Below are positions 39,801 through 62,139 of a DNA stretch of 64,000 nucleotides, in pieces. The notes under the pieces were generated by a model. The model did no database searches, was not told the origin of the DNA, and saw only the letters and a program-made list of their open reading frames with translations. How positions within the stretch are numbered: the stretch's first letter is position 1; each line of letters begins with the position of its first letter. The DNA is from Telopea speciosissima. Taxonomy: Eukaryota; Streptophyta; Magnoliopsida; Proteales; Proteaceae. The stretch spans positions 3,410,001 to 3,474,000 of the forward strand of contig NC_057924.1 in the NCBI RefSeq assembly GCF_018873765.1, in the 5' to 3' direction. Both the position numbers and the translations under genes were made by a program.

Positions 39801-42048
39801 AGACAAAAGGTTTAATACATATTTTCTATGTTACAGACTAATTATTTTCTTACTTTGAAGCACTTTAATACCAAAAACTATCTGAGAGACTAATGATGTC
39901 CAAATAATTCAAATAAAGTTGTTGACCAGATTGAAAATACCAGGGAGAATCGATTTAGCCAATCAAACCCATGAAACAGTGTACCACCTTGATAGAAAAA
40001 CAATAACTTGATGGAGTTTGATTCTCGCAGACAAATAACTCCATGAAAACTATTTTTCAGGAAATATTCTTCATGTAGACAGTATAACTGAAGAACACAC
40101 TAGTTTTAATGTGCAAGGGAGTTGTATTACGGTAAGTTGAGGTGAGTAGTTATGAGAGAGTGGTGTGAGTAGTTTATTAGTTATAAGAGATGTAGTTAAT
40201 TAGTGGATAAGTAGAGAAATTATAGGAGTAATGGTTGGTTCCTTAACTATTTGTACGTGTATTTAAGGATCACAAGAGAATAAATGGAAGTAGACTTTGA
40301 TGGTGTTGAATCCTAAATTATCTCTTGATGTTGAGAAGAGGTTGGCTACCTCCCAATAAGCCAGATGCCCTTGCTTCGTCCGTAAAGCAAATCCCTATTT
40401 TATCTCTCTCTCTCTCTCTCTCTCTTCCTATAATTTCTCTTTTTTTTTTTTTTTCCTTCGTATTTTCTCTTTAGATTATCCGTGCATATAACAACTTGGT
40501 ATTAGAGTCAGACATGGCGGAGGAGCAAAGAATTAGTAGGTTGGAGGCAAAGGTGGCATCCCTTGTCATCGGACAGGATAAACTATGGGCGATGCTCGCT
40601 CGCCTTGAGTAGTTAGTAGCCGGTTTCAACAGTCAAATGAGTCTACTTGGGCCGGACATTCCATTCCAGTGCTTACCAAATTGGACAAGCTTGAACTTCC
40701 CCATTCCAATGGCATTAATGATGAACCAGAATCTCTTCCTACAGATGCGTGAAGTGGTGGCTCACTTGTAGCACCGGCATTTAAGAAGGCCCTTATTGAA
40801 GCTCCTACAAATGTTGTTTTTGGGATTTCAAGACTTGGTGGATTGTCAACATTATTGGCATGGAAGGTGAGGGTGAGTTCATGTATTTCCGCCATCCTAG
40901 TGCACATGTGTTTTTTCGAGAATAATTCCAAGGAGAAGAGATAACTTTCGCATATGATCTAGGCCGTTTGACCTTGAGGACAGGGACAACACTTCTAAGA
41001 GGGAACGGATGCTACATGTTAATTAATTTGAATTTATATTTGAATATTTTAATTTGTAAGGGAGTTGTATTGGGGTAATAGTTATGAGAGAGTGGTGTGA
41101 GTAGTTATAGCTTATAAGAGATGTAATTAATTAGTGGATAAGTAGAGAAATTATAGGAGTAGTGGTTAGGTCCTTAACTATTTGTACGTGTATTTAAGGG
41201 TCACAAGAAAATGAATGGAAGTAGACTTTGATGGTGTTGAATCCTAAATTATCTCTTGATATTATCTTGAGAAGAGGTCGGCTACCTCCCAACAAACCAG
41301 ACGCCCTTGCTTCGTTCGTAAAGCAAATCCCTATTTTCTCTCTCTCTCTCTCTCTTTCTATTATTTCTCTTTTTTTTTCCCCCTTATTTTCTCGTTAGAT
41401 TATCTGTGCACATAGCAATATGACTTGAGAATTGTACCCAAGCCTTGATCAGCATCCCACTAACCCACCTAACTTCGGATTTTTATCTTCTCAAGTTCAT
41501 TTATCTGAGTCTCACATAGTATTGAGCAGCAAAGCCACCCTTCATTCATAATAAAAGCCGTATGCCTTAATGGCTGGTTACTAAGTATCTATAAACTCTC
41601 CATATATGACTCATAGCATGACTAGAAATAGCCTAAACTAACTATTAATCAAACTGGCTACTTAATTGACCAATAAAAGACTTAAAACAACTCCTAAACT
41701 AACCCAAGAACCTCCAGCTGTGTTTGGAGTCCGAAACCAATTAGGACTTGACATAATGAAAGAAAATCAACTCATAATAGGACTGGACTTATAGATTCCT
41801 AATCCATCCTGAACTAGGACGCATAAACATAATCAAAATAGGAAAAGAAACTGAAAATAGAAACTCTACTTAAGAACTCCATGGTAGAGTAGAAATAGGA
41901 TCCCGGTGAAACTAAGATTCCTAGAGAATTAGGAATTCTGAAATTCTGGAAACCACAAGTGGTTCTTCTTCTCTTAGCCCTGCTGCTAGTGCCCAAATAC
42001 TGCATTCTTCTTTTTGGGATGGATAACAAACTTAATCCCACCCCCCCC

Positions 42049-42080
<32 letters not shown>

Positions 42081-45000
42081 GGAAATAGTTCTAGTAGTAC
42101 AACAAAAGGACTAAGATCAGGGAAGCCTGGAGCCAAGATATATATCTCTCTGGAAATGAGACTTTCAGAGTAAATGCTCATTATAAGATCTGCCCTGTTA
42201 ATCATTCTTATATAATCTATCAAAAAAGATGAAAAATAGTTTCTGGTTTGGAGTAAAATATATGGTGCCACTAGTCCTCATGGTCTGCTGGTATGCTTGT
42301 GTTTCCAAGAATACTAGTCTCCCAAAATTGCTATGGATATATGATATACTATGCTGCTTGGAGGTTGCCAAGAAAGCTACTGCATAATAGACCCCTCCCC
42401 CTTTCAACATAGTAAAAGAATCTTAGCAGTCCTGACAGGGTCTCTCATTCAGCACAGTCCCCCCCCCCCCCTTCTTGTTTAAGTTATGATGTGTAATTGG
42501 GGTACTCTAGCTCTTTTTTGTATTGAGAGTAGTGAAGGATTACTTTTTCCTTAAAAATTTGCTGTTTTCTGTGTAGTGATCTCATATCTGTCTTGTTATT
42601 GATGCTACTAATCTTCAATCTTTTCATATTGCAGAGTGATTCTTGAAATTCTCATTATTAGAGGATTTGCTGACATTTGCAAGAATGGAATTTATGCAAT
42701 AGTTTATTTTCTTGACGCATGTTTACAGGATGAAGAGGATGAGGATGAAGCTAGTGAAGAGGAGGGAGGTCTGAGCAAATCAGGAAAGGAGCTACAGAAG
42801 CTGCTTGGGCGAACCAATGGGATGAATGAATCAGAAGGTGAAGATGATGACGATGATGATGATGTAAGTTCACATGATATTTGTCAAGCCTATGATGTAA
42901 TACTAGAACATCTTCATGGATGCTTTCTGAGCATAATGTGAGAGCTGTGTGTCTGCTTCCATGAGGCGTATGTAAATAGCAGTGTGGTGGCACCCTGGAA
43001 TATCCTCTGTTAATTGTTTTTCAGCTCTACTACGTAAAAAATCACCTATCAGGGGGAGAAAAATTTTTAGGAGTCACTGCACTTAGTCCTTATCTCAGGG
43101 AGGCTTATAAACACTCCATTTTCCCAAATCTCTGAAAATTCATTCTCACTGCCAGGATTCTCAATGGTAATCTTTATTTTTCCTTGCACAGATGGAAGAT
43201 GACATTGGCCTTTCCCCTGTACTGGCTCCAAAACAGAAGGATGCACCGAAAGAGGAACCAGCTGAGATCAGCCCCTCAAAAACAGGAACATCAGGTTCTG
43301 CACGAGGAACCCCTTCTGCATCAAAGTCATCAAAGTCAAAAAGGAAATCAGGTGGGGATGATGCAAAGGTTGCTAATGGAGCACCTGCTAAGAAAGGGAG
43401 ATTTGATAATGTAAGTCACACTTCCTTTGGGATGGCTAGACTCAAAATGTTCAGGGATGAACCCACTTTGTTATCTTTACCCAGATGATCTTCCCTATAG
43501 TGCTTGCCATTACTCTCCTGACTGTAGATATTCTTCTTTTGGCTCAGGAATCAAAACCATCTGTTAAGGATGAGCCGCTGTCCACTCCCAAGAGTAGTGC
43601 ACTTCCTAAAGGTTCAGCATCATCTTCTAAGGTTGGACCAACACCATCGACTGGCCCTGTTACTGAGGATGAAATCAGGGCTGTATTGCTGCAAATGGCA
43701 CCAGTTACTACACAGGATCTTGTTGCTAACTTTAAAGCAAGACTAAAATCTAAGGAGGTATGCCATTGCCTTTCTGTCTTGATATTCATCTGGGGTTTCT
43801 TTTCTACATGAATATTATACCTGTGGAGCAGATTCAACATTGCCATAGTTGTAAATATCTTCGCCCCAATGGAAGACTTATTGGAAAGACGTTATTATCT
43901 GCATTATTGATTCATTCCATGCGAATAAATATTTTAACATCAAACTCCCACACTGAGTTTTGTTGGAAAGTTTTTTGAGATTTCGATTGCAGTTCAACTG
44001 GTGATGTGATTTGAGTTTCTCCATCTGATGCAGTGTGATCTACTATTTTGTCCTTTCTTTCAACATTGGGATCAGTCTTCCGCTATCCATTTCTTATGGC
44101 TTGTTATCAAAATTTGTACCTTGACTTATAAGGCTGATTTTCCAAATTGTTGTTCCTGTTGGAGGAGTGTTATTTGTCATTAAACTCCTTGTTTTTTATC
44201 AGTTTGTTGTCAGTTTGATGCCTTATCATTTTATTCCCAATGTCAGACTGGTATAAAGATTGAATTACTTTTTTTTTACGATGTCAATCTGAAAATGTGA
44301 GGACCTTCAAATATGATGAATATACGCATGAATCATAGTAGCATACTATCAGAGTGTCAGTGGTATATTAATTCAGGGAACTTTTCAATATTTTCTCCAA
44401 TGGATGGGATGTTTTATATGGATGAACAGGAGTGATGGTCATGAGCCAAAAAGCCTGTAAGATCTTTAGTAAATACCCAGGAAATGTGCCCACATTGTGG
44501 CTCAAGGCTGCTGAAGCCCGAGCTAACAATAAAGCTGAGGTCCATATCTTTGGTTGTGAGCCCATGACCTGAGGACCCTGAGGCATTTATCTAAGTAACC
44601 CTTTTCAGCCTTCTTCGTAACTAAGGGTATGGCAAGCTTGGAATGAAATTAGTGTATGTCCTTGGCAGAGAAAAGTTGATATTATGAATATGTGCACTGT
44701 AAGAATACAAGAAAAATTAAATGTATTCTCGTAATTCATATCATGCTTCACATATTTGGCAAGTTTGTTTGTGTCATTCTTCTTGCACTAGGAGAAAAAG
44801 AAAGATTATTTAAAAAAGAAAAAACCTTGACAGAGATAAACTTCATGCTTTCAATGTTTGAGGTTCAACTACCCTGGATACAATGAAAACACTTCTATTT
44901 TAATGGATGAAAATTTGGAAAATTTTATAATCCGACAAATGCATTAACATCATTTTTAATTCATTCAATTTGAATTGGTATTTTGTCCATCACGATTATT

Positions 45001-45149
45001 CCAAAGTTCTTTGTGTTCTAACCTTTTTATCTATTTAAACTCATTCATTTTTGCAGGACAAGACAGCTTTTGCAGAAATCCTGAGGCGAATTTCTAAGAT
45101 ACAGAAGACGAATGGGCCCAACAACTATGTTGTGTTGAGAGAGAAATGA
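33836..45149 (+). CDS. Transcription initiation factor TFIIF alpha subunit (RAP74)
   Basis: TFIIF alpha pairs with TFIIF beta, binds RNA polymerase II and helps promoter loading and early elongation in the nucleus. Exons: 33836-34006, 34949-35104, 35567-35712, 35959-36329, 38527-38642, 42729-42863, 43192-43410, 43548-43757, 45057-45149; all GT-AG and phase-consistent, 538 aa. Residues about 10-52 hold Cys pairs (CSGC, CLAC, CVDC) as in plant homologues. About 58-205 is the dimerisation region, with NYFIGRF, KPWLLEDETGQFQYHG, YYLL and PAGSWYNFNKVAQYKQLTL. Next comes a long acidic linker (runs of D and E, exons 4-6), then a Lys/Ser-rich segment. The C-terminal winged helix (about 470-538) starts GPVTEDEIRAVLLQM and ends NNYVVLREK. 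The length matches Arabidopsis TFIIF alpha (AT4G12610, from memory). Introns 4, 5 and 8 are long; intron 5 contains transposons. A piece of exon 8 and intron 8 is copied at 55.4 kb. Confidence 0.96.
37538..37580 (+). mobile_element. 3' remnant of an RTE LINE in TFIIF intron 4
   Basis: CCGACCCCATTTAGTTGGGA, then TAAGG, TTGAG and GTTGTT match the extreme 3' end of the two LINEs in the PHD intron. Flanks TTCTGGT before and after may be a target duplication. Only about 45 bases remain, as expected for a heavily 5'-truncated insertion. Confidence 0.65.
38673..40060 (-). pseudogene. 3' end of a Ty1/copia retrotransposon with its LTR
   Basis: The minus strand codes for the end of the reverse transcriptase (PVNTPMDPHQKFG, IATRPDIS) and for RNase H. 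The latter includes TAAELMRVKSLLKELRFPI, FCDNQVAYYIAKNPVFHERT and KHIDVDCQFVRN, ending QLCDMFTKP. Several stops and shifts break it. Downstream on the minus strand lie the polypurine tract (GAGGGGGAGTG, near 39020) and one 328-base LTR (38673-39000) with ends TGATACAA and TTGTATCA. The 5' two thirds and the other LTR are missing. It lies inside TFIIF intron 5 in antisense. Confidence 0.88.
40110..41417 (+). mobile_element. TRIM-like non-autonomous LTR element
   Basis: Two direct repeats of about 370-380 bases (40110-40493 and 41055-41417) start TGTGCAAGGGAGTTG and TGTAAGGGAGTTG. Both end with a CT tract, TTAGATTATC(C/T)GTGCA and a few more bases. Right after the first is TTGGTATTAGAGTCAGA, close to the tRNA-Met primer-site consensus. 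The internal part (about 560 bases) holds no intact gag or pol. This is the structure of a TRIM. No clear TSD was found. Confidence 0.8.
43758..45056 (+). other. TFIIF alpha intron 8, source of a downstream duplication
   Basis: GTATGC to TTTTGCAG, 1.3 kb. Its sequence up to about 44945 reappears at 55.67-57.55 kb together with the end of exon 8. No gene is present in it. Confidence 0.75.
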
Positions 45150-45781
45150 TAACTGCGCGACACTTGAGCATTTCTGATGGGCTTAACCCTGCTGCTTTTG
45201 CTTTGGTAGCATATGACTCCACATTATAGGTGGAGTCACCTAGTTGGGTATTGCCGTGTTGTCACCTAGTTGGGTATTGCCGTGTTTTCTGCCAGGCAGG
45301 AACCCTGAGTCACTCTGCGGAAGGGTTGTCCATAGGCTATACTTTATTCTGGTGGATCATAAGCACGGTATTCTCCAGTTTGTCTTATTTTTGTGTTCTT
45401 TGCCATTGTAATATGTGCTTGCAAGCTATTTTTATTTTCTGCTAACACGATTTCCTTGTCTGAGGGACGACATTGCCATGTCCTTCATGTGGTCAGAATA
45501 GTAACCTTTAAGCATTATGTACTGAAAACAGGTCACAAAATATATCCATCAATTGGCTTTTTTTCCTTGTTAGGCCATAAATAACGGAGAGAATCATGTT
45601 ACTGGTACTGAGGTGATGGAAAAATGTAATTCTGCAAGTCATTGATGCACACTTATAGTTGGCAATGAAAGAACATGCTCGTGGTTCCTTAGGCCTGCAA
45701 GATAGACATACAATAATCAGGATCCCCATCATGCCATGCCAAAGGTGAGATTTACAGTACACAGGGGATGGGCTAGTTGGG

Positions 45782-45909
45782 TGATTGTGTAACTAATTTC
45801 AAAATATTTCAAATCTGATTAAATTTTACTATGTTTAAAAAAACAAAAATTTTGATCATCATATTTAGTAATAATTTGAGGTAGCTATGCAATCATATAA
45901 TTACACAAG
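45782..45909. mobile_element. AT-rich MITE downstream of TFIIF alpha
   Basis: The ends TGATTGTGTAACT and the complement of AATTACACAAGG are imperfect inverted repeats, similar to the MITE at 29465. The interior is AT-rich. It lies in the 3' flank of the gene, about 0.6 kb after the stop codon. Confidence 0.45.
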
Positions 45910-46236
45910 GTTTCATTACCCTTTTTTGGTTTCCTTCTCTTCCCTTTACTTGCAACTAGGCTGAGGTTCCGGATTTTAACAAGATGGTATGTTCTAAAAA
46001 AAATTTCAGCATTCATTTTTTGAGAGAAAGGGGAGAGTATACTATTAATATTAAAAAGAGTTAGGAGAGATACATAGGATTGTATTCTCAGAAATGGAGA
46101 TCATGAAGAATCTCTTGCAACACACTTGGTGAGTTATTCAATTAAATCACTGATGTCAAAAAACTGCTCTCTAACATTAGACAGCAGCATTGATAAAATT
46201 TCTGCTGTTTTTCTTGTTTCTCTATAAATAAAACAG

Positions 46237-46376
46237 GGGCGATTGTTCTCTGGCTGGGAGCGCAGGCTGCGCTCAGACATATGGGGCAGTCATTTTGGTC
46301 ATTAAGGGGACCGGGGTGGTCATTTCGCCTACCCCCATGTGTCTGGCTGTACTCCTGGCATAGAGGACATTTGGCC
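46237..46376. mobile_element. GC-rich Mutator-type MITE, perfect 9-base TSD
   Basis: ATAAAACAG is found at 46228-46236 and at 46377-46385. The ends GGGCGATTGTTCTCTGG and the complement of ATAGAGGACATTTGGCC are imperfect inverted repeats. Size, GC content and the CCTCT core relate it to the MITE at 23314. Confidence 0.85.
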
Positions 46377-46513
46377 ATAAAACAGAAATGTATATCCTAA
46401 AATAAATGCTCAATTTGATCTAGGTGCCATCAAGTTTCCCATGGAGCTCTTGATTTCCTCCTAATGTAATGAATTACAGTCTTAGAATCCGGGTAGATCT
46501 CGACTTTCTGTAG

Positions 46514-46538
46514 CCCCCCCCCCCCCCCCCCCCCCCCC
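46514..46538. repeat. Poly-C run of 25 bases
   Basis: An uninterrupted C homopolymer lies between TAG and AACCTCTCC. Its exact length may be a sequencing or assembly artefact. A G-run at 37740-37754 and a shorter C-run near 42461 are similar. Confidence 0.8.
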
Positions 46539-46753
46539 AACCTCTCCTTTCGGCTGTCTCTATTAGACCCCTTCTTATACCTTCAAGTTTTAATTAATTT
46601 GATAGTTTAGCACCTCCTGCCAAATCGAAAATAGGCCTCTTGTCTATATCCAATCCTGTTTGATCTCTTCGAACCATCTGTATTGAGAGCAATCCACCCA
46701 TTAGGTGGGGCCTCTCATTTCACCCATTTAGTGTTCACTGTTCACGGAAGAAG

Positions 46754-47190
46754 CAAAAAAACTCCCAGGACCATACACTATCTGTAGTCTTGTTGGTGTG
46801 ATGTTGAAATTTAATTCTCATATCATTCATAATAGTTCCAATAACTTGGAATGTCTTACATTGAAATATTCTATATGATTTCTTTCAGCTCAGATGTGGT
46901 AAATCGATGAGCTGAATGAAAGCTTGATCAGTTGAGTTACTAAGTAATTAACTTGGAATCCTTTAAAAAAAAACTAAAGGATTTAAACCAAGTTTCATTC
47001 TTCCCTAACTAGGCTCCCCACCCCCCCCCCCCACCCCCTTCCTCTCCCTCCCTCCCCCTCCTGTTGCAATACCCCCCTCGCTGTTCTCTGTCTCTCTCTT
47101 TCTCTCTTCCCTCCCCACCTCCCCCTCCTCCTCTCCCCCTCTCCCTCTTCTTCGGGTCTGCCCCTGCCCCGCCGCAGCATGAGATCATTG
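46754..47190 (+). repeat. Three-copy local repeat, copy 1
   Basis: The stretch from AAGCAAAAAAACTCC through TTCTCATATCATTCATAATAG, CTATATGATTTCTTTCAGC and TTCCCTAACTAGGCTCC to CTGCCCCGCC matches 57600-58010 along its length. Its second half also matches 49079-49260. Local, same-strand copies suggest segmental duplication. The long pyrimidine block (47020-47160) gives the misleading Pro/Arg-rich frames. Confidence 0.75.
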
Positions 47191-47534
47191 TTGACCAGCA
47201 TATTGCCAAAGAATCGAAATCCTTGGGCATATTTTCTTTAGGGTTTTTTATAATTACCACCCCAAAAACTTTGATATCTATTATTACCCTCCTAAAAACT
47301 TTCAAACAACTATTACTCTCCCCTGTTGTATACTAATAACTAACTGGCTCCCACCGTTACATTTCTGTAACGGTGAGGGTTAGTCGTGACAGTGTGCCGT
47401 TGTCACGGATTTTCTGGGACCAAAATGCCCTTTTGGGGTGGTAATTGTAAAAAAAAAACCCCACCCCATCACCGTCCCTTCTCCTCCTTCTTCTTCCTCT
47501 GCAACCCCAAACCTTGTTTTCTCCACTTGAGGTC

Positions 47535-47711
47535 CTAACTCCAAACCATGACAACAAGAATCATTGCACCAACCATCACCCATTCATTTCTTGTGACAGG
47601 ATCCATCTGCTCCAACTTCTTTGTAGCCATGGCAGGGGCTTCTGGTGTGTCCTTAGTTTCAGGAAGATAGAGGTTATACAGGATATATGGAGTGGCTAGA
47701 AGAGAAACAAA
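47535..47711 (-). pseudogene. Captured fragment of a plastid dicarboxylate transporter (DiT-like)
   Basis: The minus strand reads ATPYILYNLYLPETKDTP, EAPAMATKKLEQM and PVTRNEWVMVGAMILVV. From memory this matches the conserved YPPE-KDTPEAPA-A-KKL and GPVTKNEWIM block of the chloroplast 2-oxoglutarate/malate translocators. About 59 residues remain, with no start. The fragment is fused in frame with LRR-like sequence upstream and stops in the TIR. It is not functional alone. The last ten or so codons also appear in the opposite arm, so they were copied into both TIRs. Confidence 0.72.
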
Positions 47712-48000
47712 TGCATCGGTTTTGGAGATGGTTACTGACCTGAGCTTCTTCATGTTCCCTAGAATGATCGACGGTCTGCGGGTTTTAACTATCACTTGGG
47801 AGATCGTTAGATTGGTGAGATTCCTTAGACGGCTGAGCCACGCATCGGTTAACTTACAAGACTGTTGACGCAAGTGAAGGAGCGGAGACTAGCGATGAGC
47901 TCGTCTGGGAATTGAACGAGTGGGATGGGGTAATTGAGGAACTCGAGATTTTGCAATGTGCTTAAGGATTTCAAGGATTTTTACTGTATTCAACATGATA
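47712..48000 (-). pseudogene. Captured leucine-rich-repeat gene fragment
   Basis: The minus strand, with one frame break, reads SLKSLSTLQNLEFLNYPI, FPDELIASLRSFTC, KLTDAWLSRLRNLTNLTI and ILGNMKKLRSVTISKT. The spacing of L residues is that of LRR receptor-like or resistance-type proteins. I cannot name the donor. The fragment joins the transporter piece near SKTDAFVSLLAT. Confidence 0.6.
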
Positions 48001-48879
48001 GTTAAAACAAGGTTTGGAGTACAATGATACTCCATAATGGAAGCTCTCTTTTCTCTACGGGTGTTTAGGGATTTCGCTCTTTGTGGTTTTGAAGCTCAGA
48101 ATATGCTCCAATGGCGGCTCGGAATCTCTTGTAAGTTGACACTTTTACTGACTTCACTGCTTTACTTGAGAGATCTGGTTTACTCTTTCCCTCGTATTTT
48201 GAGATTCTCTTATTTTAAATTTGTTTACTTCATCTGGAGTTTGATTCTTCATGTGTCTGTAAATTTCCTGGAAGTAGCGATGGCCTTCCTCTTACATTTC
48301 AATTTTTTTCCCCTTTCTTCTGCTTAGGAGTTATCGTTATGAAGAGGTTTCGTTTCGAGTGATCTCTTCTCTCGATTTTTACTATATTCAACATCGGTAC
48401 AATGATTCTTGCTGTCATGGTTTTGAGTTAGGACCTCAAGTGGAGAAAACAAGGCTTGGGGTCGCAGAGGAGGAAGAAAAAGAAGGAGAAGGGACGGTGA
48501 TGGGGTGGGGTTTTTTTTTTTACAATTACCACCCCAAAGGGCATTTTGGTCTTAGAAAATCCATGACAACGGTACACTGTCACGACTAACCCTCTCTGTT
48601 ACGAAAATGTAACGGTGGGGGCCAATTAGTTATTAGTATACAACAGGGGAGGGTAATAGTTGTTTGAAAGTTTTAGGGGGTAATAATAGATATCAAAGTT
48701 TTGGGATGGTAATTGTAAAAAACCCTTTTCTTTATTTGCCTTGCCAGAAGAGTCTAGACTCCATGATTATTGCGCATTAAAGCATAACTAATTCAAGCCA
48801 AATTCATCTTCTAGCTGCTTATAAATCTTGAAGGCATGTCGTCCCGAAATAGCAAGGGAGTCGCCTACAACGTGGAATT

Positions 48880-48999
48880 TTTATCCTCTCAATTACACTG
48901 TTCGTACTTGACGTCAAGTACATCTAATAGAGGGAGGTGGACCCCATGTGGACCCCACCTCGTGACTTCAAATACGGACAGTGTAATTGAGAGGATAAA
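48880..48999. mobile_element. Palindromic MITE
   Basis: The ends TTTATCCTCTCAATTACACTG and their complement (CAGTGTAATTGAGAGGATAAA) are perfect inverted repeats. A second inner palindrome, TACTTGACGTCAAGTA, lies inside. A related, partly lost copy lies at about 61316-61424. Confidence 0.8.
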
Positions 49000-49078
49000 T
49001 ATCCATCTACGTGACCCCACCCCTCCTCCTGCCCTTCTCCTTCGGCTAGCTTCCATTCCCTTTTTTTTTTTTTTTTGG

Positions 49079-49350
49079 ATAAAGATGAGTTGAATGAAAA
49101 GCTTGATCACTTGAGTTACTAAGGAGTTACCTTGGAATCAATTTAAAAACAGGGGATTTAAACCGTGTTTCAGTCTTCCCTAACTAGGCTCCTCCGGCCC
49201 CTCCCTCTCCTGTTGCAAACCCCCCTTCCTCTCCCTCCCTTCCCCTGCCCCGCCTCAGCAAGGGAGTCACCTACATGACCCCATCCCTCCTCCTCAAGGA
49301 AAGGGTGGGAAGGGAAGGGCAAGGGATCATTTCAAATGTTAAAATGGGTG
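49079..49350 (+). repeat. Three-copy local repeat, copy 2
   Basis: The sequence GAATGAAAAGCTTGATCACT through TTCCCTAACTAGGCTCC and CTGCCCCGCCTCAGCAAGGG to GGCAAGGGATCATTTC matches 57790-58105, and in its first half 46910-47180. Confidence 0.75.
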
Positions 49351-49467
49351 AAGATCGTAGGATAATGCTAATCCACGGGTCACTCGTCTAGGGTGGTACT
49401 GCCAGGGAAATTGCAGATTGGGAACTTGAGAGGATAAAAATCCAGTTCTCACCACCCCATAGGAAAA

Positions 49468-49670
49468 TTATTCTCTCCAATTCCCTATAGCTTGGCAGTG
49501 CGACTGTACTAGTGTGGATGTCCGACATGTGGCAGCTCAAACATCCAACAGTTCGAGCTTGTTGACTATGATCAACTCAAACCATTGAATGTCCAAACTG
49601 CCACATGTTGGATATTCACACAAGCACTACCGCATTGCCGAACTATAGGGAATTGGAGAGGATAATAATT
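49468..49670. mobile_element. MITE with long inverted termini
   Basis: ATTATTCTCTCCAATTCCCT then ATAG, TTGGCA and GTGC at the left mirrors GCATTGCC, GAACTATAGGGAATTGG and AGAGGATAAT at the right, about 37 bases with few differences. The middle also folds (CGACATGTGGCAG against CTGCCACATGTTGG). The TSD is not certain. Confidence 0.75.
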
Positions 49671-50445
49671 CACCCCGACATGAGTAGATGATCCGGAAAT
49701 CGAAATATAGGAGAGAGATGGAGGGAGGTTGGAATCGAAGAGAACCTTTCTTGGCAAAGTAAGTAGCATTTTGACAAGTGTGTGGTTTGTGTGATTACAC
49801 CTTCATAAAAAAAAGCTGCATTGAATGCGTGGGTTTAGTCCCACATTGTGTGTGTGTGTGCATGTGGTATGGTGTGTGTTGTGTTGTCTATCTGTCATTC
49901 CATGGTCTATAAGTAACATTTTGGGATTGGTGTGTGGTTTGTGTGATTACAGTTTCATCTGGAAAAAAAAAAAAGAGTAAATTACACATCACCCCTTGAT
50001 TTCAAACGAAACTCAGATTACCCCTTGGTTTTTGAAAAAACTCAAATCACCCCTTCATTTAGACCCCAATATGACAAATTAGTTCTACCATTAGTTTTAT
50101 GCTTTTAAGTGATGTCAGTCAGTTAAAAAAAATTAGGGATAAATGATATATCACCCCCTGTTTTCAATTGAAACTCAGATCACCCCTTGGTTTTGAAAAA
50201 ACTCAAATCACCCCCTCTACAGTAACGATGTTAATCTGCTGTTAGTTATTAATGTGAAAGGACTATTTTGCCCTTATACTAAAACATTAGAATTAAATTT
50301 ACAATACTATCCTTCCTTCATCTTCAACCTAAAATACCCACCCCTTTCCTGCAACTCCGATGGCTGCACCTCCACTGGCCGACGTCAATGAGCGCCAGAC
50401 CCAGACCGGAAAGCTACAACACGAGAAGGCCACCCACCTGCACAC

Positions 50446-50476
<31 letters not shown>

Positions 50477-51489
50477 CAACGCAACACGTACATTACCACT
50501 TACTTTTGGTTTTTACTATTTTCTTTGATTTGTCTTCCTGAGTTTTGTTTAGGCTTTATGCTTAAGTGTAGCAGCCATACGAGGCTTTGGGGCTTTAGCC
50601 ATTTCTTCCCCTTCCCTTCTAATAAAATCTCCCTTCGGAAGTTATGCTACTCGGCTGCTCTTCCTATGTTCTTTCATTAACTTCAGTAAACAACAGTTTA
50701 AGTATCCTGGACGAGAATAATGTCGGTGAATAACCAATTCGGAATCAGGCTTTGTAGGCTGATGTTGAGGAACAGATTAAAATTTTGAGCTAAAGAATCA
50801 CTAGGACTCAAAATACCTCCCACCATGTGAAGAATATACTTATAATATTGCTCAATTCAAAAATTTCCTTCATTTGGAATCGGAATCACAATCACTAGCA
50901 CTCGAAGACAAAGCAGGGAACTTTTCCCAATTTCAGGTTTTGCAGAAGCAAGCCCTCGAGCACACTTTCCTCTCTACAGCACCAAAGACACACAAACTGA
51001 AAATCCACTGGATACCCCAATTAACCAAAACCCAACTCCAAAACTATGAGAACTTCCCAAAACAGAACAGTTTCGAAGCCGAAATTTCACTATATAGCTT
51101 CCGTTGATAAGCCAAGAGAAGTAAAGAGAACCTCAGGAGGAGTATGTAAGATGAACAAACCCAGATAATAATCCTCTCAGCAAAGTGACCCAGTTCGTCA
51201 AACCAGCAAATTACGATATTTCAGAACTCAAAAATAGGTTAGAATTCACCATACATAGGAATTCATATGAGAGGGGGGAGGACGAAGGAAAGAGTATTGG
51301 GTCCCCCTCTACAGAGTTTTAACAAGGAAATCTCTTTCACTCGAACCTCTCACTCCAACTTTTGACTTTAACCTGTTCCCTATGAATAAGCTCATTCAAA
51401 TATTCTTTCGGTTTTTACTCCTCTTTTTCCTCCTCTTCCTCCCGCTTCAGTTGTTCAGACTCAATGGTTTTTTTTTTTTTTTTTTTTTT

Positions 51490-53074
51490 GGGTAAAATGT
51501 ACTCTCTATAATGCACCCAATATTTCTCGTACCCCCTAAGTTTCTGATAAATCCACGGACCACTCCCTTAATATTCCACGTACCATCCCTATTTTATCTT
51601 TCTAAAAGCATTTAAGTCCAAAAATGTAAAAAATAATCAAACTACCTTTTCTTCTATTTTTTTTCTAAAATTTGAAAAAATCTAATTGCCCTAAACTATT
51701 TGCTAAAATTTAAAAAGATCAAAATACCATCTTCTTCCCCAAATCATCATCTTCTTTTAAGAACCCAATACCACCACCACCACCCTCCATTAACACCATC
51801 ACCTCCGTGAAGCCCCACCTCCAGCACCAATAGGAATCAAATCATTTCTTTCTCATTCAATTAGAGAAGATTTCATAGAATAGTTCCAAAACTTAATTGG
51901 ACAAAAATAAAAAATCCAAGTTGGATGGGAGAAGCGGAACAAAGAGATTGTTGATTACTTCTAACACGGGTCTGTAGCCTTCCTAATTTTAACTTGCAGG
52001 AGCCTTTTCTCGACTACTCTTCCGATGAATTCTTCAAATGTGGAAGAAAATTCACCAAAGTGTATCCGAATCTCCAACTTTTCTTCCTTGCTTTTTCAAT
52101 TTTCCTACTCAATTGGGATTCCTGTCTTTGACCATCTAGAGAAAGTTGAGGAAAGAGGAGGGAGAAGAGAGTGGGGCTTGGTTTGCTGGAAACGATTGGG
52201 TGAGACCTGGTTTTAGCAAGAACAGGTTGAGCATCGACGGGTGAGAGGTGTAGAAGCTAGTTACTGGTATGAGGGTTGAACAACTAAAAATTATCAGAAT
52301 GTTCCGTAATTCTTGACTTTGGAGGGTATTTGGGGCCGGTTTGTTGTCTGTGAGCATGAGATCAGACTGGATTTGCCAAATAAATTAAAGATTTTCTTTT
52401 TTTCTCGTTGGGGTTCTATCAGTTTGGGCTGACATTTGGGTATATGTGTACCCTGGAGAGATTCAAATTGTAAACGGAGGTCGGAAAGTTGCCTGAGTTG
52501 GGGGTTCTAAGATCAAGTTTCAGGTTGGATTCCTTCCTACTCTACTGCCAGGAACAATTACAGATAGCTTTCTTTGATGATTCGAGGGCTGTTTCGCTGG
52601 TTATAACTTAGATTTCATAGGGTTATGAGTTGTGATTCAGGTCCTAAAATTCCATTTGATCCATTCTATCTTGAGGAGGATTTTCTCCTTCGTAGGTTCC
52701 TGTGGTAGGGGCGGAGGAGTTGGAGGTGGGGCTTCACGGTGGTGATGGTGTTAATGGTGGGTGGTGGTGGTGCTTGTGGTGGTCGTAGTAGTATTGGGTA
52801 TCTAAAAGAAGATGATGATTTGGGGAAGATGAGGGCATTTTTGGTCTTTTCAAATTTAAGCAAATAGTTCAAGGCAATTAGGTCTTTTCAAATTTTAGAA
52901 AAAATAGAAAAAAGGGTAGTTTGGTCATTTTTTAGTATTTTAGACTTAAATGAGTTTAGGGGGTAAAGTAGGGGTGGTACGTGAAATATTGAGGAGTGGT
53001 ACGTGGACTTATCAGAAGCTTAAGAGGGTACGAGGAATATTGGGTGCATTACAAGGGGTACGTGTATTTTACCC
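51490..53074. mobile_element. Long-TIR Mutator-like element, 1585 bases
   Basis: Arms of about 350 bases (51490-51840 and 52690-53074) are inverted repeats starting GGGTAAAATGTACTC and GGGTAAAATACACGT. They run through GCACCCAATATTTCTCGTAC (inverted near 53030) to the CACCACC-rich inner part. The target lies in a T-run (TTTTTTTTT left, TCTTTTTTT right), which hides the exact TSD. The middle, 51.84-52.69 kb, is 850 bases without a recognised protein and may be captured host DNA. Confidence 0.85.
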
Positions 53075-53227
53075 TCTTTTTTTTTCTAGTGTTGTTCCAT
53101 CTTGAAAAAAAAAAATTTATTCTCTTCACTCTCTTTCTTCTCTCCGATGAAGTTCAGCTTGAGATTGAGTTGCTGGTGAGGAATAGAGTGGTGTGAGGAA
53201 GATGATAGAATTTGGGGTTTTTAGTTA

Positions 53228-54833
53228 GGGAAATTTTCAGCGCCCCCCTCCGTTGGACCGTGGAATTAATGCCAACTCATTAAGTCCCAATATTTCAATT
53301 TGGGCCAAAAAACTAACGGAAATCACATTGTAACAGTTAAGTAGTGATGTCACCATGTTAGTAATTTTGTAAAGTCAATTTTGCCCTTGTTTTATTTTTT
53401 TTTAATTCCTTTTTCTTTCCTTCTTCTCCTTCTTCTCCTTCTGCTGTTTTTTCCACTGCCGCCATTGCCGCTGCCACCACCACCACCTCCAACCCTCCTT
53501 CTCTCGCTCCCCTGCAACCCCGCCACCACCCTCTCCAGTCTTCCCAGCCCCATCATATTCTCAGCAATTCAACCTTTCTAAAAGTGGGTTGCAGGTAAGA
53601 AAATTTTCAGGGTTCAAAATTCACAGGAAAAAACAGAAAGGTTAGGGAAAGAATGGATCAGACTCTTGGCTTGGATTCGCCGAAGAGAAAAAATAGCTTA
53701 GTATCATCAGAGTCGAGAAGTTGGGGAAAGAATCATCACTTCCATCCATTCCATACAAATCTCATTTTTCATCCCAAATTAAAACCCTAATCACGTAAAA
53801 AACAGAAATTCAGAAAGAGATAAAATGAGAAGATAAAAAAGAGAAATAGAATTTCTCCGGATCTGCAAGGGCACCTTTGATGCCGTCATTGCACCATCAT
53901 GAATTCTCTCTCTCTCTCTCTTCGTTTTTTTCCTGTGTCCGCTTTAGGGTTTTTTCCCCCAAATACCAACCATGGAATTGGAGCAGATAATTTTCCTGGA
54001 ATTAGGAGATGGGGACTTTGGAATTGGGAGAAGAAATGGAAATGGAAAATTTCCATTATGGGGGACTTTTGTCTCTTCACTCCCCAGATTCTCACTTCAC
54101 ACAGTTATCTCTAACCAAGGATCGATCTGAGAGAATTGAAAGAGAGCTTTAATCTGAAACTTACTCACCTGGTAGAGTGAGTTCAAACAATTGGAACAAC
54201 CAGAAAGCTTGTTCCCTCTCCTTTAATCTGGAACTTACTCATCTTGTTGCTACTCAAGCAATCCTTCTCAAGGCGATTCACATTCTCACCACCGAAAAGC
54301 TTCTCCTCTTTCGACACCAAGAACGCATCAGAACAGCTCAAGGGTTGGAGCCTTGTACCACAATAGCAATAGACGAGAACGCAAGTCTGAGTATGCAAAG
54401 TATGCAGAGTAGAGCCAAGCGGCAAGCACAGGGCAGCAGTGGCTTCGTTTCAGCCCTGTGTGTGCATTAATTTGGGTTATTTTCATTGCACCGCAAGCGT
54501 TGTTGAAGGCGTGGAAGAGCTCGTTAGGGAGGTTGAGAGGGCAGCCATGGAGGTTGAATTGTTCGGAGAAGGCTGGGATCGTGGTTGGATGAGATGGGGT
54601 TGAGAAGAATGGTTGGATTAGAGCTGGATGAGATGGGGTTGGGAAGAAAGTCCCCATTTTCCATTTCCATTTTTTGTCCCTTTGTTCAACTGAGGGTAGT
54701 TTAGACATCTTACTCCCACTCAGTTAACTCTCGGTTATTTCCATTAGGTTTTGGGCCCAAATTGAAATATTGGGACTTAATGAGTTGGCATTAATTCCAC
54801 GGTCCAACAGAAGGGGGGCGCTGAAAATTTCCC
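53228..54833. mobile_element. Long-TIR Mutator-like element, 1606 bases, perfect 9-base TSD
   Basis: TTTTAGTTA occurs at 53219-53227 and 54834-54842. The arms, at least 110 bases, start GGGAAATTTTCAGCGCCCCC on both ends and continue GACCGTGGAATTAATGCC and TTGGGCC. The middle (53.4-54.7 kb) has a Pro/Leu-rich pyrimidine block at 53.45 and the minus-strand peptide LPNELFHAFNNACGAMK near 54.5 kb, which I do not recognise. No transposase is seen. Confidence 0.9.
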
Positions 54834-55254
54834 TTTTAGTTATAAAGGTAAAAACGTAAATCAACACTGGTCAAGGTAGTTTAGGGATTTAAATTTATTT
54901 AACTGGGTGACATCATCACTGAACAGCATAAAGCTAAAGTTAAGGATTAATTTGTCATTTTGGGGTCTAAACCAGGGGGTGATCTAAGTTTCGATTGAAA
55001 ACTAAGGGGTGTTGTGTAATTTATCCTAATCCCTAAACTACTCTTGATCAATGTTAAAGATGAAGGAAAGGTAGTATTGTAAATTTAATTCTAATATTTT
55101 AATACAAAGATAAAATAGTCCTTTCGCATCAATAACTAACAGCAGACTAACACCGTTATTGTAGAAGAGGTGATTTGAGTTTTTTCAAAAATCAGGGAAT
55201 GATCTAAATTTCATTTGAAAACCAGGGGGTGACGTGTAATTTACCCCCAAAAAA

Positions 55255-55668
55255 TAATAGCACTTCTGCCGGGTAGAAAGAGAAGTAAAATTTAGAAATT
55301 TTATCTCTAACACGGAAGAGTCGATCGGCAGAGCAAGCAGCAATGTCGGAAGCGATATCCCATCCATTATCTCCTCCTAAAGGTTCAGCATCATCTTGTA
55401 AGGCTGGACCAACACTATCGATTGGCCCGGTTACTGAGGATGAAATCAGGGCTGCATTTCTGCAAATGACTCTAGTTACTACAGAACAGGCAGACCAGGT
55501 AGTCATTTCGGAAGCGATATCCCATCCATTATCTCCTTCAGCATCATCTTCTAAGACTGGACCAGTTACTGAGAATGAAATCAGGGCTGCATTGCTGAAT
55601 ATGGCACCAGTTACTACACGTGATCTTGTTTTTAACTTTAAAGCAAGACTAAAATCGAAGGAGGTATG
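55255..55668 (+). pseudogene. Chimeric duplication: phytocyanin exon 1 and TFIIF alpha exon 8, twice
   Basis: On the minus strand, 55310-55370 reads GGDNGWDIASDIAACSADRL, the start of the phytocyanin domain found at 60.1 kb. It joins at CTCCT to TFIIF exon 8 on the plus strand (AAAGGTTCAGCATCATCTTG). A second phytocyanin piece (about 55485-55535) and a second exon 8 piece (about 55537-55661) follow. Both pieces keep the orientation of their parent genes. A plus-strand frame from the ATG at 55343 runs through both units: an antisense-phytocyanin leader, the GPVTEDEIRAA motif, then GPVTENEIRAALLNM and FNFKARLKSKE at the old exon end, with the splice donor GTATGT still present. The copied phytocyanin donor is mutated, so that half is dead. 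Confidence 0.82.
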
Positions 55669-57545
55669 TCATTCATTGCCTTTCTGTCTTGATGTTCATC
55701 TGGGGTTTCTTTTTTACATGAATGTTATACCTGTGGAGCAGAGTCAACACTGCCATTGTTGTAAATATCTTTCGCCCCAATGAAAGATCTATTGGAAATA
55801 CATTATTCCCAATGTCAGACTGGTATAAAGATTGAATTACTTTTCTTTTACGATGTCAATCTGAAAATATGGGGACCTCCAAATATGATGAATATACACA
55901 TGAACCTTAGTAGCATTCTATCACAGTGTCAGGGCACTTCTCAATATTTTCTCCAATGGATGGGATGTTTTATATGGATTAACAGGAGTGATGGTGATGA
56001 GCCAAAAAGCCTGTAAGATCTTTAGTAAATACGCAGGAAATGTGCCCACAATCTGGCTTAAGGCTGTTGATGAAGCCCGAGCTAACAATGAAGCTGAGGT
56101 CCATATCTTTGGTTGTGAGCCCATGACCTTAGGACCCTGAGGTGTTTATCTGAGTAACCCTTTTCAGCCTTCTTCTGTTTAATCATCCTGGAAACACCAG
56201 GAAGGCAGTAACTAAGGGTTTAGCAAGCTTGGAATGAAATTAATGTATTTCCTTGGCAGAGAAAAGTTGATATTATGAATATGTGCACTGTAAGAATACA
56301 AGAAAAATTATATGTATACTCATAATTCATATCATGCTTCACATATTTGGCAAGTTTGTATGTGTCATTGATGTAGATTACAAGTCCATATATACCCGCA
56401 GGAACAAACCCCAAAACCAGCCCAGCAAGGTTGTGGGATTCGACTGCTGTGAGTGACAGCCTGGTCTGATGATGTGGCAAGTTTTTGTTGGTTCGATGGA
56501 GCATAACTTAACGCAGCCCCAACCTAGAGAGAAGCATGAAGAAGATAAGAGACCAAGACATAATTAATGAATGAAATTTTGAGGTATTCTTGCACTCGAT
56601 TATGGGAGTAAAACCCCTGTTCAACAGTTGGGATAGCTGTGGGTGAGAGAATTCGGCTGAGAGAGCCATTCCCCTACCGTCCATCTCTTCTCTATCTTCT
56701 CTTCTATTGCAATCAATCCTTCATGCTGCTGTTTCTCTGTTGATCAATACAAGTGCTGTGAAGAATCCTTTGAAGGCTGCAATCAATCCTCAAACACTCC
56801 CAAGTCTGTTGCTGCTGGTGCTGTACCCATCGATCGAAGACCTCTGCTGCAACATCAGAGTGGGATATCTCCACATTCTTTCATCAAACCTGCAGAGTTT
56901 TGGAGCATAACCCCACTCCATCACCCCCTCCATCCGATCCCCACTTCTATCCCATTCCATTGGCTAGAATCCTCCATAGTCACAAACTTTCTATTTTCAT
57001 TCCCCCTTCATAACCTCACTTCTGTCCATCAAAATTACACCAAACTTGCTGCAGATCACCTTCTCCTCAAGGCCTCTACTCGATCCTCATTGGAGCCCAA
57101 ACAAAGTGCTGGTTTGTGAGATAACCCTTGACCCTCTATTTTGGCTTTGCTGCCATATCTTTCAATTCAATCATCAGAATCAAGTGAGACTTTCAGCAGT
57201 GCTTCTACTCCATACAAGCACCAATTGATCTGAGTTTGATCCATTTCCAATGGCTGGTTTGGTTCTTATTTACTAAGTTACTAATTCTGATTTTGTTTCT
57301 AATTTGATGTTCTGCTGCAACCTATCATCGATCCTACTGTAGAGTGGTTCTTAATTGAACCCCTTCTACAATAGTCAATCTTCTTACACTAGGAGAAAAG
57401 GAGAGATTATTTAAAAAAGAAAAAAACTTGACAGAGAAAAACTTCATACATTTTGAATGTTTGAGGTTAAACTACCCTGGTTACAATGAAAACACTTCCA
57501 ATTTAATGGATGAAAATGGTAAATTTTATAATTCCGACCCATGTA
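55669..57545 (+). repeat. Duplicated TFIIF alpha intron 8 sequence
   Basis: After the exon 8 copy, the sequence follows TFIIF intron 8 (43758-44945): TTTACATGAATGTTATACCTGT, CTGTGGAGCAG, GGATGGGATGTTTTATATGG and CCATATCTTTGGTTGTGAG. Part of the intron (about 43880-44240) is missing near 55790. The copy is split by a family X element at 56369-57373 and ends near 57545, before exon 9. After it, the match jumps to the three-copy repeat at 46754. Confidence 0.85.
56369..57373 (+). mobile_element. Family X LTR-like copy 3, inside the TFIIF duplication
   Basis: The parental intron reads GTCATTCTTCTTGC. In the copy GTCAT is followed by TGATGTAGATT and 1005 bases on by GTCAATCTTCTTAC. GTCAT/GTCAA is therefore a 5-base target duplication with one change. 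The element shares GTTGGTTCGATGGAGCA and ATCGATCCTACTGTAG with copy 2. It is LTR-like and non-coding. Confidence 0.75.
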
Positions 57546-57597
57546 TGAACATTTCGTGTTTGCGGTAGAGTACCATATATGGATGAATGTCCTATGA

Positions 57598-58105
57598 AGC
57601 AAAAAAAAACTCCTTGGACTATGCACTATCTTTAATCTTATTGGTGTGATGCTGAAATTTAATTCTCATATCATTTATAATAGTTCGAATAACTTGGGAT
57701 GTCTAAACTGTTTTACCTTGAAATATTCTATATGATTTCTTTCAGCCCAGTTATGGATCGATGAGCTGAATTTTGTTTTTTTTTTGGTGAAGCTGAGCTG
57801 AATGAAAGCTTGATCACTTGAGTTACTAAGGAATTACCTTGGAATCGATTTTAAAAAAAAAAAAGGGATTTAAACCATGTTTCAGTCTTCCCTAACTAGG
57901 CTCCTTCGCCCCCTCCCTCTCCTGTTGCAAACCCCCCTTCCTCTCCCTCCCTACCCCTCCCTCTTCCTACCCCTCCCTCTTCTTCGGCTCTGCCCCTGCC
58001 CCGCCTCAGCAAGGGGGTCACCTACATGACCCCTCCCCTCCTCCTCAAGGAAAGGGGGTGGGATGGGAAGGGAAGGGAAGGGAAGGGCAAGGGATCATTT
58101 CTACT
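57598..58105 (+). repeat. Three-copy local repeat, copy 3
   Basis: Collinear with 46754-47180 and, from 57790, with 49079-49350. It adds a GGGAAG tandem near 58070-58090. Its start coincides with the end of the TFIIF intron duplication, so both may be parts of one event with the 44945-46754 segment deleted. Confidence 0.75.
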
Positions 58106-58669
58106 AGGGGTGGGAGAGTGACAGACTCGGACTGGGCACAACGCTAGCGTGTCCAGTCTTTTTGGACCATTTTATGTTGACATGTTTTCGGGGAAGTAAA
58201 AATGTTTATCTATTTTTGTTTTATTTCGGAACATTTTATATTGAAACAAATCCATGTCAACGTAACTATTAAGATATTACATATTTACATGTCAAACGAT
58301 AATGTAATAAAGAATGCTGTCAGACTGCATAGCATATTCTAGCGTCTCTTTCTGTCTATCTCTCTCCTCTAAAGATAGGAGGTAAATATGTCATTTTATA
58401 AACAGTAGGAGAGAGAAAATATATTATGCAAAACAATACCAAAAGGCAAGTATTATCATCAAAGATCAAACCATGTAATTTAAACAAGTCCCTAATTATC
58501 ACATTAAGTATCAAATAATCAAAGCCTTAAAAATTCCAATCCCAAACAGAAAACATGTTTAAGTAAGAAGAGCATCTGGTCCTCTAAGTAAAAGTAAAAT
58601 TAACAGGGAAAGCCAAATCTGAAATCCTTCTCTCAAGTGAGCCTAGCTAGTCTAGTCTTTTTCTAATAC
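58106..58669. other. Spacer between the repeat block and the phytocyanin gene
   Basis: AT-rich sequence with no supported gene. It must hold the 3' UTR and poly-A site of the phytocyanin gene on the minus strand. Confidence 0.45.
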
Positions 58670-60280
58670 TCAAATTAAAAGAAAGGCAAGAAGAAGAAGA
58701 AGAAGAAGAAGAGGAGAAATGCCATGCGTGGCAGAGAAGGAGGGACCCGCTGCAGATGGAGTGGTTGGTCCCGTGGCGATGGCATCGTCATCGGCATCGT
58801 ACATCTGATCATGAAACTGGATCGGCTGCTGCGGCAGTACATCGATGTTAAGCTTGAGGCCCTTCTTGCACCTATCAGTGCTGCTGCTGGCGAAAAAGCG
58901 GGTGCCTACACCATCGAGGGTGATGCTATCCAGGCCGTCCGTATACATACGGATAGGGTTGGTCACATCGCAAGCCTGCAACTCTTCCATGCTCCCCACC
59001 TCCACTATGTTCTCTCCTGCTCCTGATGAGTAAGCAAACCCTGCCATCCAATTTCATAAATTTATATCTAACATGAGGGTGACGATTTTACATCGGATTT
59101 GGAAACAATTTCGGAAAAGGAGAGGATTTTGGCAACTATTTTTGCAACCAATTATTAAATGACCTGGACGGCTTTGGGATGGGTTTCTCGACAGTTCTAG
59201 AATCAATAGACCAATAAGATACCAGTTGAAACCAAAACCAATTGGACCCGGTTGAATGTTTGAGACTTTAAGAGTCCAAAATTGTTAAGAAATCAGGCCT
59301 AAGTAGGTTGTAATCGCACCAAAAAATAAAAAAGTCTCGTTATTAAATGAGATCGGATCTTAATTGCACAACATCACTTTTACACATGGGTGAATTCAGA
59401 TCCTTTGTACATACGTTACGCTTCATATGCCAACACATGTCTCTTTTGTTTCCATAAATATCTCTCTTCACCTTTTAAATGACAACACATTAGGATGAAC
59501 ATAGATGCAAAGATCTCAACTCAAATCCAACATTGATCTCTTCTTCTCTTTCTCTTTCGATCCAGATCTGTCGAGACGAGGAATAGATCTATCTCACACC
59601 GTCCATGGGATGTAGAACCCACCTCTAGCACATAGGATCCACATCCCAGGGAGGGGTGAGATCTGTCCCCATCCATTCCCACTTGGGGATTCCCATTCCT
59701 ATGTATATAAATAATTAAATATTCTTTTAAACTCTCTCCTTCTCGAGGAAATAAATAAATAAATAATGAAAAACATAAAAAAAAAAAAGAGGAAAGGGAG
59801 CTTGGATCGTCTCTACCCACATGGATGCCACCTCCACATGGTGAGAACAAACCAAACAAAATCTCCTCACTTTTGATCACCTTTGATCCCTGGTAGATGG
59901 GGTGGAGATTTTATTTGGTTGATTCTCACCATACAGGGTGCACCCACATGGGTAGAAGGTCCGGACTAGAGGAGAAAGAGAAGAGGGGGGGTGGGGAATC
60001 CAAGAGAACTTTTCTTGGTACAATTACGGAAGTATATCATCTCAAGTGCATCGCACTTGAGAATCCAACTGTCCACCCAACACTTGTGAGAGTAAAACTT
60101 ACAAATATGATCTCCAACACGGAAGAGTCGATCGGCAGACCAGGCAGCAATGTCGGAAGAAATATCCCATCCATTATCACCTCCCACTACGTGAACCTCA
60201 GCTGTTGATGCTGCAACCCCAATCCCTCCTCCTCCTACAGTCATCATCACAGTAACCATCAAAACCAAAACCAAACCCAT
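58670..60280 (-). CDS. Phytocyanin (early-nodulin-like), probably GPI-anchored
   Basis: Exons on the minus strand: 60280-60103 and 59040-58670. GT-AG splicing in phase 1 makes the Trp of GDHI-W-FAYSS, the conserved phytocyanin intron site. The product is 182 aa. An N-terminal hydrophobic signal (MGLVLVLMVTVMM, to about residue 26) is followed by the cupredoxin domain: VHVVGGDNGWD, ADRLFRVGD, IVEVGSMEELQACDVTNPI, then MYTDG and FFASSSTDRCKKGLKL. Two Cys (in QACDV and DRCKKG) should form the usual disulfide. The His, Cys, His and Met/Gln copper ligands are absent, so it probably binds no copper. A Ser/Pro-rich stretch and a poly-Leu tail suggest a GPI anchor and a cell-surface place. In-frame ATGs upstream, to 60373, could extend it by 31 aa. 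Exon 1 was copied to 55.3 and 55.5 kb. Confidence 0.88.
58683..58710 (-). repeat. Coding GAA/CTT microsatellite in the phytocyanin tail
   Basis: On the plus strand GAA repeats about seven or eight times. On the minus strand these are CTT leucine codons that make the hydrophobic C-terminus (SPLLLLLLL-AFLLI). Slippage would change the length of the GPI signal without breaking the frame. Confidence 0.8.
59041..60102 (-). other. Phytocyanin intron (1.06 kb)
   Basis: On the minus strand it starts GTAAGTTTTAC and ends ATGGCAG. It contains partly palindromic sequence with GGATCCACATCCC near 59635 and an AAAT-rich patch at 59750. No gene is seen in it. Confidence 0.75.
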
Positions 60281-60984
60281 TCCCTCCTTGCTCCTATCAA
60301 TAAGATGATGATGACATCTCCTTCCTCTTCCTCCTCCTCCCAATTCCATCTCCACACCCACGCACTTTCTCACCTTGATTAATTACTAGAAGAAGAAGTG
60401 GAAGTTTGGGCCTTTTTAAAGTACTTGAAGCAGAAGAAGCCTCTGTCGTTGCTTCTTCTCAGGTGATCTCTCTCCTTTTTAATGTATTCGTTTATTATTA
60501 ATTTCCATTACAGTAAAGCTGAATAGTTGTTGTTAGTTACAAACCCACAACCACAAGTAAACCCACCGTCTTTTGAGGAAGGAATGGTTGGTAGAGAAGC
60601 TACAAGTCATTGGACAATAGAGTACTGAAGGCCGGACTTCATTAATTGTTTTTTTTTTTTTTTCTCATTTTCTTACACTGCCAGCTGCCTCTTCTTTCCT
60701 CACTCCATGTCCCCTTCTCTCTTTCTATTTTCTGCTAAAAATAATTTCGATTTGCTTTAATACTTACAATACGTACAGTCTCTCCTCCTGAGTTTATCAA
60801 ATAAGCCAAGTTTGATTCTTGGACAGGTGGGAACAAGACAATAATATCTTTTAAAACTCTCTCTAACTACTACATCTCCAAAACCTCCCAAGATGTATCT
60901 TTCATTCTCACCTCTGCGTTCGTTACTTCGTTTGGTGGACAAGTCATGTAGTGGGGACTGACTTTATGGATAACCTCAGGATTT

Positions 60985-61315: not shown

Positions 61316-61424
61316 AGCGGATCACGTACCTGCCCGAACACACTGCCCGAGGTGGGATCCACCTCCCTCTATTAGATGTACTTGACGTCAAGTACATTGC
61401 CGGCAGTGTAATTGAGAGGATAAA
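61316..61424. repeat. Diverged copy of the palindromic MITE at 48880
   Basis: CACCTCCCTCTATTAGATGT, then ACTTGACGTCAAGTACAT and GCAGTGTAATTGAGAGGATA recur here, partly in inverted order relative to 48880-48999. The left TIR is lost or altered. Confidence 0.6.
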
Positions 61425-62139
61425 ATTTGTGGTTCTGTGCAATGATACTGGAAAAAAACACAAAAAAAAATGTCTTCTTTGATTTGTTGACCATCTCTTT
61501 TGTACAACCAATAGAAGAGATTTCTATATTTCGTATTTAATTAAGTTGTATTGTGAGAATATGATAATCTCTTGGGTAAGAGAATGCTAACTGATTGTGT
61601 AGCGGTTCCATCAATGCGGGGACCAATAAGAGTGCATGCATGAGCATTTAATGGAGTGAGATATTTAATTCACTAGGGACTGAGCAGTAATTTTGCATTG
61701 TCCTATCCTGTGTCTAGGCATAGGAAGTTAGGAACCACACTACCGGATAGTGTTTTTTTCCGTAATCTCCTTCATGAAATATTAGAACCTAGCTCGTCGA
61801 ACTCACACTATATCAATTTTTAAATTCATTTTGTAGTATGAAGCTAGTAATACAAAGAAATTGTATACTACACAAAATGAATTTAAAATTTTAATTCAAT
61901 AATTGTGACTACTACTTAGTATCGGCAATAATAGTTCTGAAAAAGTATCTTAAAGGATGAAAATTTAGATATTTGCATCCTATTGAAGTAAGGAACCACA
62001 ACATATATGTTTGGCTCCATTTTGAGAGATTTGAAAGAGCACTATTTCGAAGAAAGATTCTATTCACCAATACCAAATCAACATCCTATATTATAACCCA
62101 ACTTACATTAATACCTTATATACGATTATATGCAAGTTT

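Follow-up and report, generated by a model that had tools for sequence, protein, structure and literature searches.

The window analysed here is the whole 64,000-nucleotide stretch of Telopea speciosissima DNA (NC_057924.1, positions 3,410,001 to 3,474,000), and all coordinates below are counted from its first letter. It contains a TFIIF-alpha gene on the forward strand and, further downstream, a phytocyanin gene on the reverse strand. Parental exon 8 of TFIIF-alpha (43548-43757) matches the Pfam model TFIIF_alpha (E 1.2e-9). Exon numbers (8, then 9) follow the numbering of an earlier note on this DNA, and our gene reading covers TFIIF-alpha from exon 8 on. The exon after exon 8 (45057-45149) runs to a stop codon; its match, to the end of the TFIIF_alpha model, is weak (E 0.002, under the curated cut-off). 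The downstream gene matches Pfam Cu_bind_like in exon 2 (E 4.5e-8), and the donor of its intron 1 is read at 60102. Exon 1 alone gave no Pfam match, so the name phytocyanin rests on exon 2 and on our reading of exon 1. Between the two genes lie short pieces of both, termed P (phytocyanin) and T (TFIIF-alpha), together with an open frame that runs through them (Table 1).

Table 1. Features of the locus, in window coordinates; "=" gives the matching stretch in the same window.
Feature	Position	Strand	Basis
Parental TFIIF-alpha stretch (exon 8 end, donor, intron 8) found in the copy, minus 43897-44230	43604..44950	+	blastn blocks; Pfam
Spacer block A, left copy	46750..47179	+	= 57596-58011
Spacer block B, left copy; overlaps A in the right copy	49062..49333	+	= 57771-58101
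Possible left-copy remnant of phytocyanin intron 1, beyond the nest	49671..49780	-	compared with 59941-60048
Transposon nest, Mutator-like by long inverted repeats 50133-50328 / 55053-55250	49973..55250		inverted repeat
P1, phytocyanin exon 1 copy (82 bp) plus 12 bp of intron 1, truncated at the junction	55284..55377	-	= 60091-60184
Open frame, 146 codons, P1-T1-P2-T2 into the intron copy	55343..55783	+	ORF reading; neutral simulation
P-T junction, 3-bp microhomology TCC, proposed breakpoint	55375..55377		overlap of two blastn matches
T1, TFIIF-alpha exon 8 copy, first unit	55375..55483	+	= 43604-43712
P2, second phytocyanin piece, putatively from a 162-bp local duplication	55489..55537	-	repeat family D3; = 60134-60182
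T2, TFIIF-alpha exon 8, donor (GT at 55664) and intron 8	55537..56369	+	repeat family D5 (start 55537); blastn
Insertion of ~1 kb in the intron copy, flanks GTCATT / GTCAAT	56370..57373		blastn gap
Remaining intron 8 copy	57374..57552	+	= 44773-44950, 87.8%
Spacer blocks A and B, right copy	57596..58101	+	blastn
Phytocyanin gene, downstream of the copy (exon 2 to 59040, exon 1 60103-60349)	58700..60349	-	sequence reading; Pfam

The pieces alternate as P-T-P-T, and every one keeps its parental chromosomal orientation. This arrangement, described in the earlier note, was recovered both by a repeat finder and by blastn, for which 54800-56300 and 52000-58500 were queried against the 64-kb window, the second at E up to 0.01. 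P1 is identical to its parent at 84/94 positions (89.4%, E 6e-30), T1 at 90.8% (E 4e-38) and P2 at 85.7% (E 6e-10). Within T2, 55555-55807 matches 43649-43896 at 88.9% (E 7e-91), and the splice donor reported after the TFIIF part of the frame is indeed kept. The TFIIF-derived part had been described as two exon pieces; the exon 8 sequence is present, but the match is not limited to exon pieces and runs on through intron 8. Because P1 carries 12 bp of intron 1, the copies derive from genomic DNA. A processed retrocopy is ruled out by these 12 bp and by the intron 8 retained in the TFIIF copy.

The copied region extends well to the right of the pieces. By blastn, intron 8 continues at 55803-56369 (= 44231-44778), with 334 bp of the parental intron (43897-44230) absent from the copy, and resumes after the ~1-kb insertion. 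Beyond it lie spacer blocks whose left partners are found downstream of TFIIF-alpha, with parental order and strand kept. From 55375 to 58101, four plus-strand blocks thus recur with order and orientation unchanged, A and B overlapping, and the blocks of the right copy match only these named partners within the window (BLAST, E up to 0.01). One 27-bp match (49004-49030 = 58019-58045) is out of order. A search of 56300-58700 for the next TFIIF exon (45057-45149) gave no match, the best local score being 10.5. The earlier note had confined the copied region to 55255-55783; the pieces in it are real, but this limit is too small, since the copy reaches 58101. The right-copy spacer differs by 0.062 from left B and by 0.117 from left A, while the distance between left A and left B is 0.128. 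Given these values, the repetition of A and B is probably older than the large duplication.

If these blocks were copied together, then their divergence from the parents should be similar. Differences per site were 9/96 (T2) and 10/105 (T1) for the exon copies, 12/137, 31/528 and 17/176 for the intron blocks, 15/153 and 14/249 for the spacer blocks, and 6/75 for P1, or 10/94 when P1 is taken in full. The eight blocks are homogeneous whether P1 enters as 6/75 (P = 0.42) or as 10/94 (P = 0.32), the two exon copies not being independent of each other.

These data suggest that the P-T join is probably the seam of one old, decayed tandem segmental duplication, with a unit running from TFIIF-alpha exon 8 (43604) into phytocyanin exon 1 (60184). 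In such an event the end of the first copy would be joined to the start of the second, so that phytocyanin exon 1 and TFIIF-alpha exon 8, both cut short, would adjoin in this order, each on its parental strand. At 55375-55377, position 60184 meets 43604, that is, the end of the proposed unit is joined to its start. In its geometry, the join at TCC fits a tandem-duplication breakpoint and a circle junction alike. The left phytocyanin copy, without start and promoter, and the right TFIIF copy, without upstream exons, would have been truncated from birth. We infer a single tandem event for all blocks, after which phytocyanin exon 2 would have been lost from the left copy and the next TFIIF exon from the right one. 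Transposons and the 1-kb insert would then have broken up what remained of the copies, and the second P-T unit would stem from a local duplication of 162 bp. The open frame would be a by-product of the seam.

On the left side, most of the interval is taken up by the transposon nest. Its inverted repeat is 84% identical over 198 bp, its flanks are A-rich, a clean target duplication is absent, and extra terminal repeats lie near 49977 and 55026. The nest ends 33 bp before P1, and these 33 bp contain only a 9-bp match. Beyond the nest, blastn (E 5e-6 and 1e-7) pairs 49671-49780 with part of phytocyanin intron 1 (59941-60048), a match that fits the tandem model in order and strand. The local score of 39 was reached by 0/300 dinucleotide shuffles and 0/73 window stretches (one strand), the maximum being 24.5 in both controls. 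We read the first part of this match as the end of a palindromic MITE in the phytocyanin intron. The part outside the MITE end scores 27.5, which none of 162 control comparisons (both strands; maximum 18.5) reached. Of the ~190 bp between remnant and nest, only a 19-bp A-rich stretch matches. Phytocyanin exon 2 was not found in 45150-55300 (a low-complexity match only, score 18.5), and BLAST within the window gave no trace of the phytocyanin 3' flank in the left copy. The tandem model must therefore assume that both were deleted.

The possible remnant is also too diverged for the age of the other blocks. It differs from its partner at 19/100 sites, compared with 118/1538 for the other blocks (P = 0.0005), and its non-MITE part differs at 15/69 (P = 0.0003). 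When the remnant is added, the block set becomes heterogeneous (P = 0.003). The left-side evidence for a tandem duplication is therefore positional and inconsistent in age, and the remnant may be a dispersed repeat or the product of an older event. This lowers the odds of the tandem reading and raises those of an inserted fragment. In that alternative, phytocyanin and TFIIF-alpha sequence would first have been fused, through a single template switch or within a DNA circle closed at 60184|43604. The ready-made fragment, carrying intron and spacer, would then have been inserted between the two genes. The order of the join with its 3-bp microhomology, as in a circle junction, and the end of the copy near 58101, with no match beyond, are consistent with it, as is the over-divergence of the remnant, which is the main sign of a left tandem copy. 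It requires formation and reinsertion where a tandem duplication requires one event, and the remnant, if real, sits where a tandem copy would put it. We consider insertion of a ready-made fragment less likely than the tandem reading, yet a serious competitor to it.

Uptake of the gene fragments by a transposon, in a Pack-MULE or other Mutator-like element or in a Helitron, is very unlikely. A Mutator-like inverted repeat does end at 55250, 33 bp short of P1, and Pack-TIR elements are reported to take up nearby sequence with microhomology (PMC8277862). But P-T lies outside the pair 50133-50328 / 55053-55250, and with 52000-58500 as BLAST query against the window (E up to 0.01) no partner of that repeat was found to the right of P-T. 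A Pack-MULE was set aside because the pair lies wholly to the left of P-T and the fragments are not enclosed.

Several further repeats were observed in the window. A Mutator-like element at 47241-48725 has inverted repeats of ~285 bp and an exact 9-bp target duplication, TTTTCTTTA. A second, at 53228-54833 within the larger nest, has inverted repeats of ~100 bp (94%) and an exact 9-bp target duplication, TTTTAGTTA, and a third element (51490-53074) has inverted repeats of ~334-354 bp (81%) and T-rich flanks. A palindromic MITE-like stretch (49467-49666) directly adjoins the possible phytocyanin intron remnant. The short repeat at 48876-48946 and 61353-61428, in opposite orientation and 87% identical, lies outside the proposed duplicated unit and is probably a dispersed small element. 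Within a TFIIF-alpha intron, direct repeats at 40104-40494 and 41047-41418 lie ~0.9 kb apart and differ at 29 of 367 sites. The first is followed by TTGGTATTAGAG, which we take to resemble a tRNA-Met primer site, and for this reason the pair is perhaps a small LTR element.

The second P-T unit can be accounted for by a simple route. The repeat finder gave spacings of 162 bp for P and then of 153 and 135 bp for T, and the second unit is therefore short by 9 and 18 bp. Changes common to both units, relative to the parents, were found at 3/49 P sites and 2/82 T sites (28 + 54), and unit-specific changes numbered 2 and 4 in P and 5 and 4 in T. A single fusion and a subsequent tandem duplication of 162 bp would fit the P-T-P-T order, although the shared changes are few and some may be parental. 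Local template switching, favoured in the earlier note over long-range capture, captures the local origin from two neighbouring genes; its alternating switches are unneeded, because the two units share changes relative to the parents.

The frame through the seam retains recognizable TFIIF-alpha sequence (Pfam TFIIF_alpha, E 1.7e-9). If it had been maintained as a coding sequence, then its exon copies should have diverged less than the non-coding copies. They differ at 19/201 sites, compared with 89/1243 (Fisher P = 0.25), a comparison with few sites and little power, in which some parental bases are covered by both T1 and T2 and 55537-55567 is left out. The earlier note had proposed calculating dN/dS for the TFIIF-derived frame. 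In our counts pN/pS was 1.52 and 1.55 for the copies relative to the parent and 1.98 between units. With few sites in either comparison, the frame shows no sign of purifying selection. We also simulated neutral decay from the parental letters, keeping the observed layout, over the 107 codons between 55343 and the donor, with 20,000 runs per divergence. The frame stayed free of stops in 37% of runs at 7% divergence, 28% at 9% and 19% at 12%. A scan for tRNAs (bacterial code) found none.

The length changes inside the frame (162, 9 and 18 bp) are all three multiples of three, compared with 4/17 in the non-coding copies. This favours a coding past, but it carries little weight, being a post hoc count in a stretch chosen for being open. 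Because these changes keep the frame, the fused frame may once have been, or may still be, translated, perhaps driven by the Mutator-like inverted repeat upstream of P1; inverted repeats of such elements can carry promoters (PMC3310237). A small protein carrying two incomplete TFIIF-alpha segments might then compete with the parent, or an antisense RNA might act against phytocyanin; we give this scenario hardly any credence. Equally remote is the proposal that the locus is expressed as a chimeric proto-gene or yields small RNAs that target both parents. Its positive support is the open 146-codon frame and the frame-keeping length changes. Exon divergence not under the non-coding level, pN/pS above 1, the ease with which the frame stays open by chance and the missing next TFIIF exon all speak against it, and the gene structure suggests that no parental promoter would be expected at the seam. 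The proto-gene proposed earlier thus gains no positive support beyond its open frame, and we infer that the frame has no function.

A tandem duplication probably explains the join, which would show how a local duplication with both breakpoints in genes can leave a seam that resembles a built chimera. Once the flanks were read along with the open frame, a supposed proto-gene became a likely rearrangement scar, and such scars could be mis-annotated as genes.

The join is an ordinary finding. Tandem duplications that fuse gene parts are already documented, with 76 chimeric genes reported for Drosophila yakuba from a set of 1116 duplications (PMC5460883). As in those chimeras, a duplication that ignores gene borders would join pieces of two genes at its seam. 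Unlike the chimeras described there, phytocyanin here is antisense, parental promoters are not expected at the join, and the copy is old and decayed, its tandem origin being our reading of the layout. Pack-MULE and Pack-TIR elements (PMC8277862) offer a second likeness, in fragments of nearby genes next to long inverted repeats and in a join with microhomology. Here, in contrast, the inverted repeats do not enclose the fragments, and intron and spacer are copied over 2.7 kb. Finally, the extra terminal repeats of the nest recall elements with tandem inverted repeats (PMC3310237).
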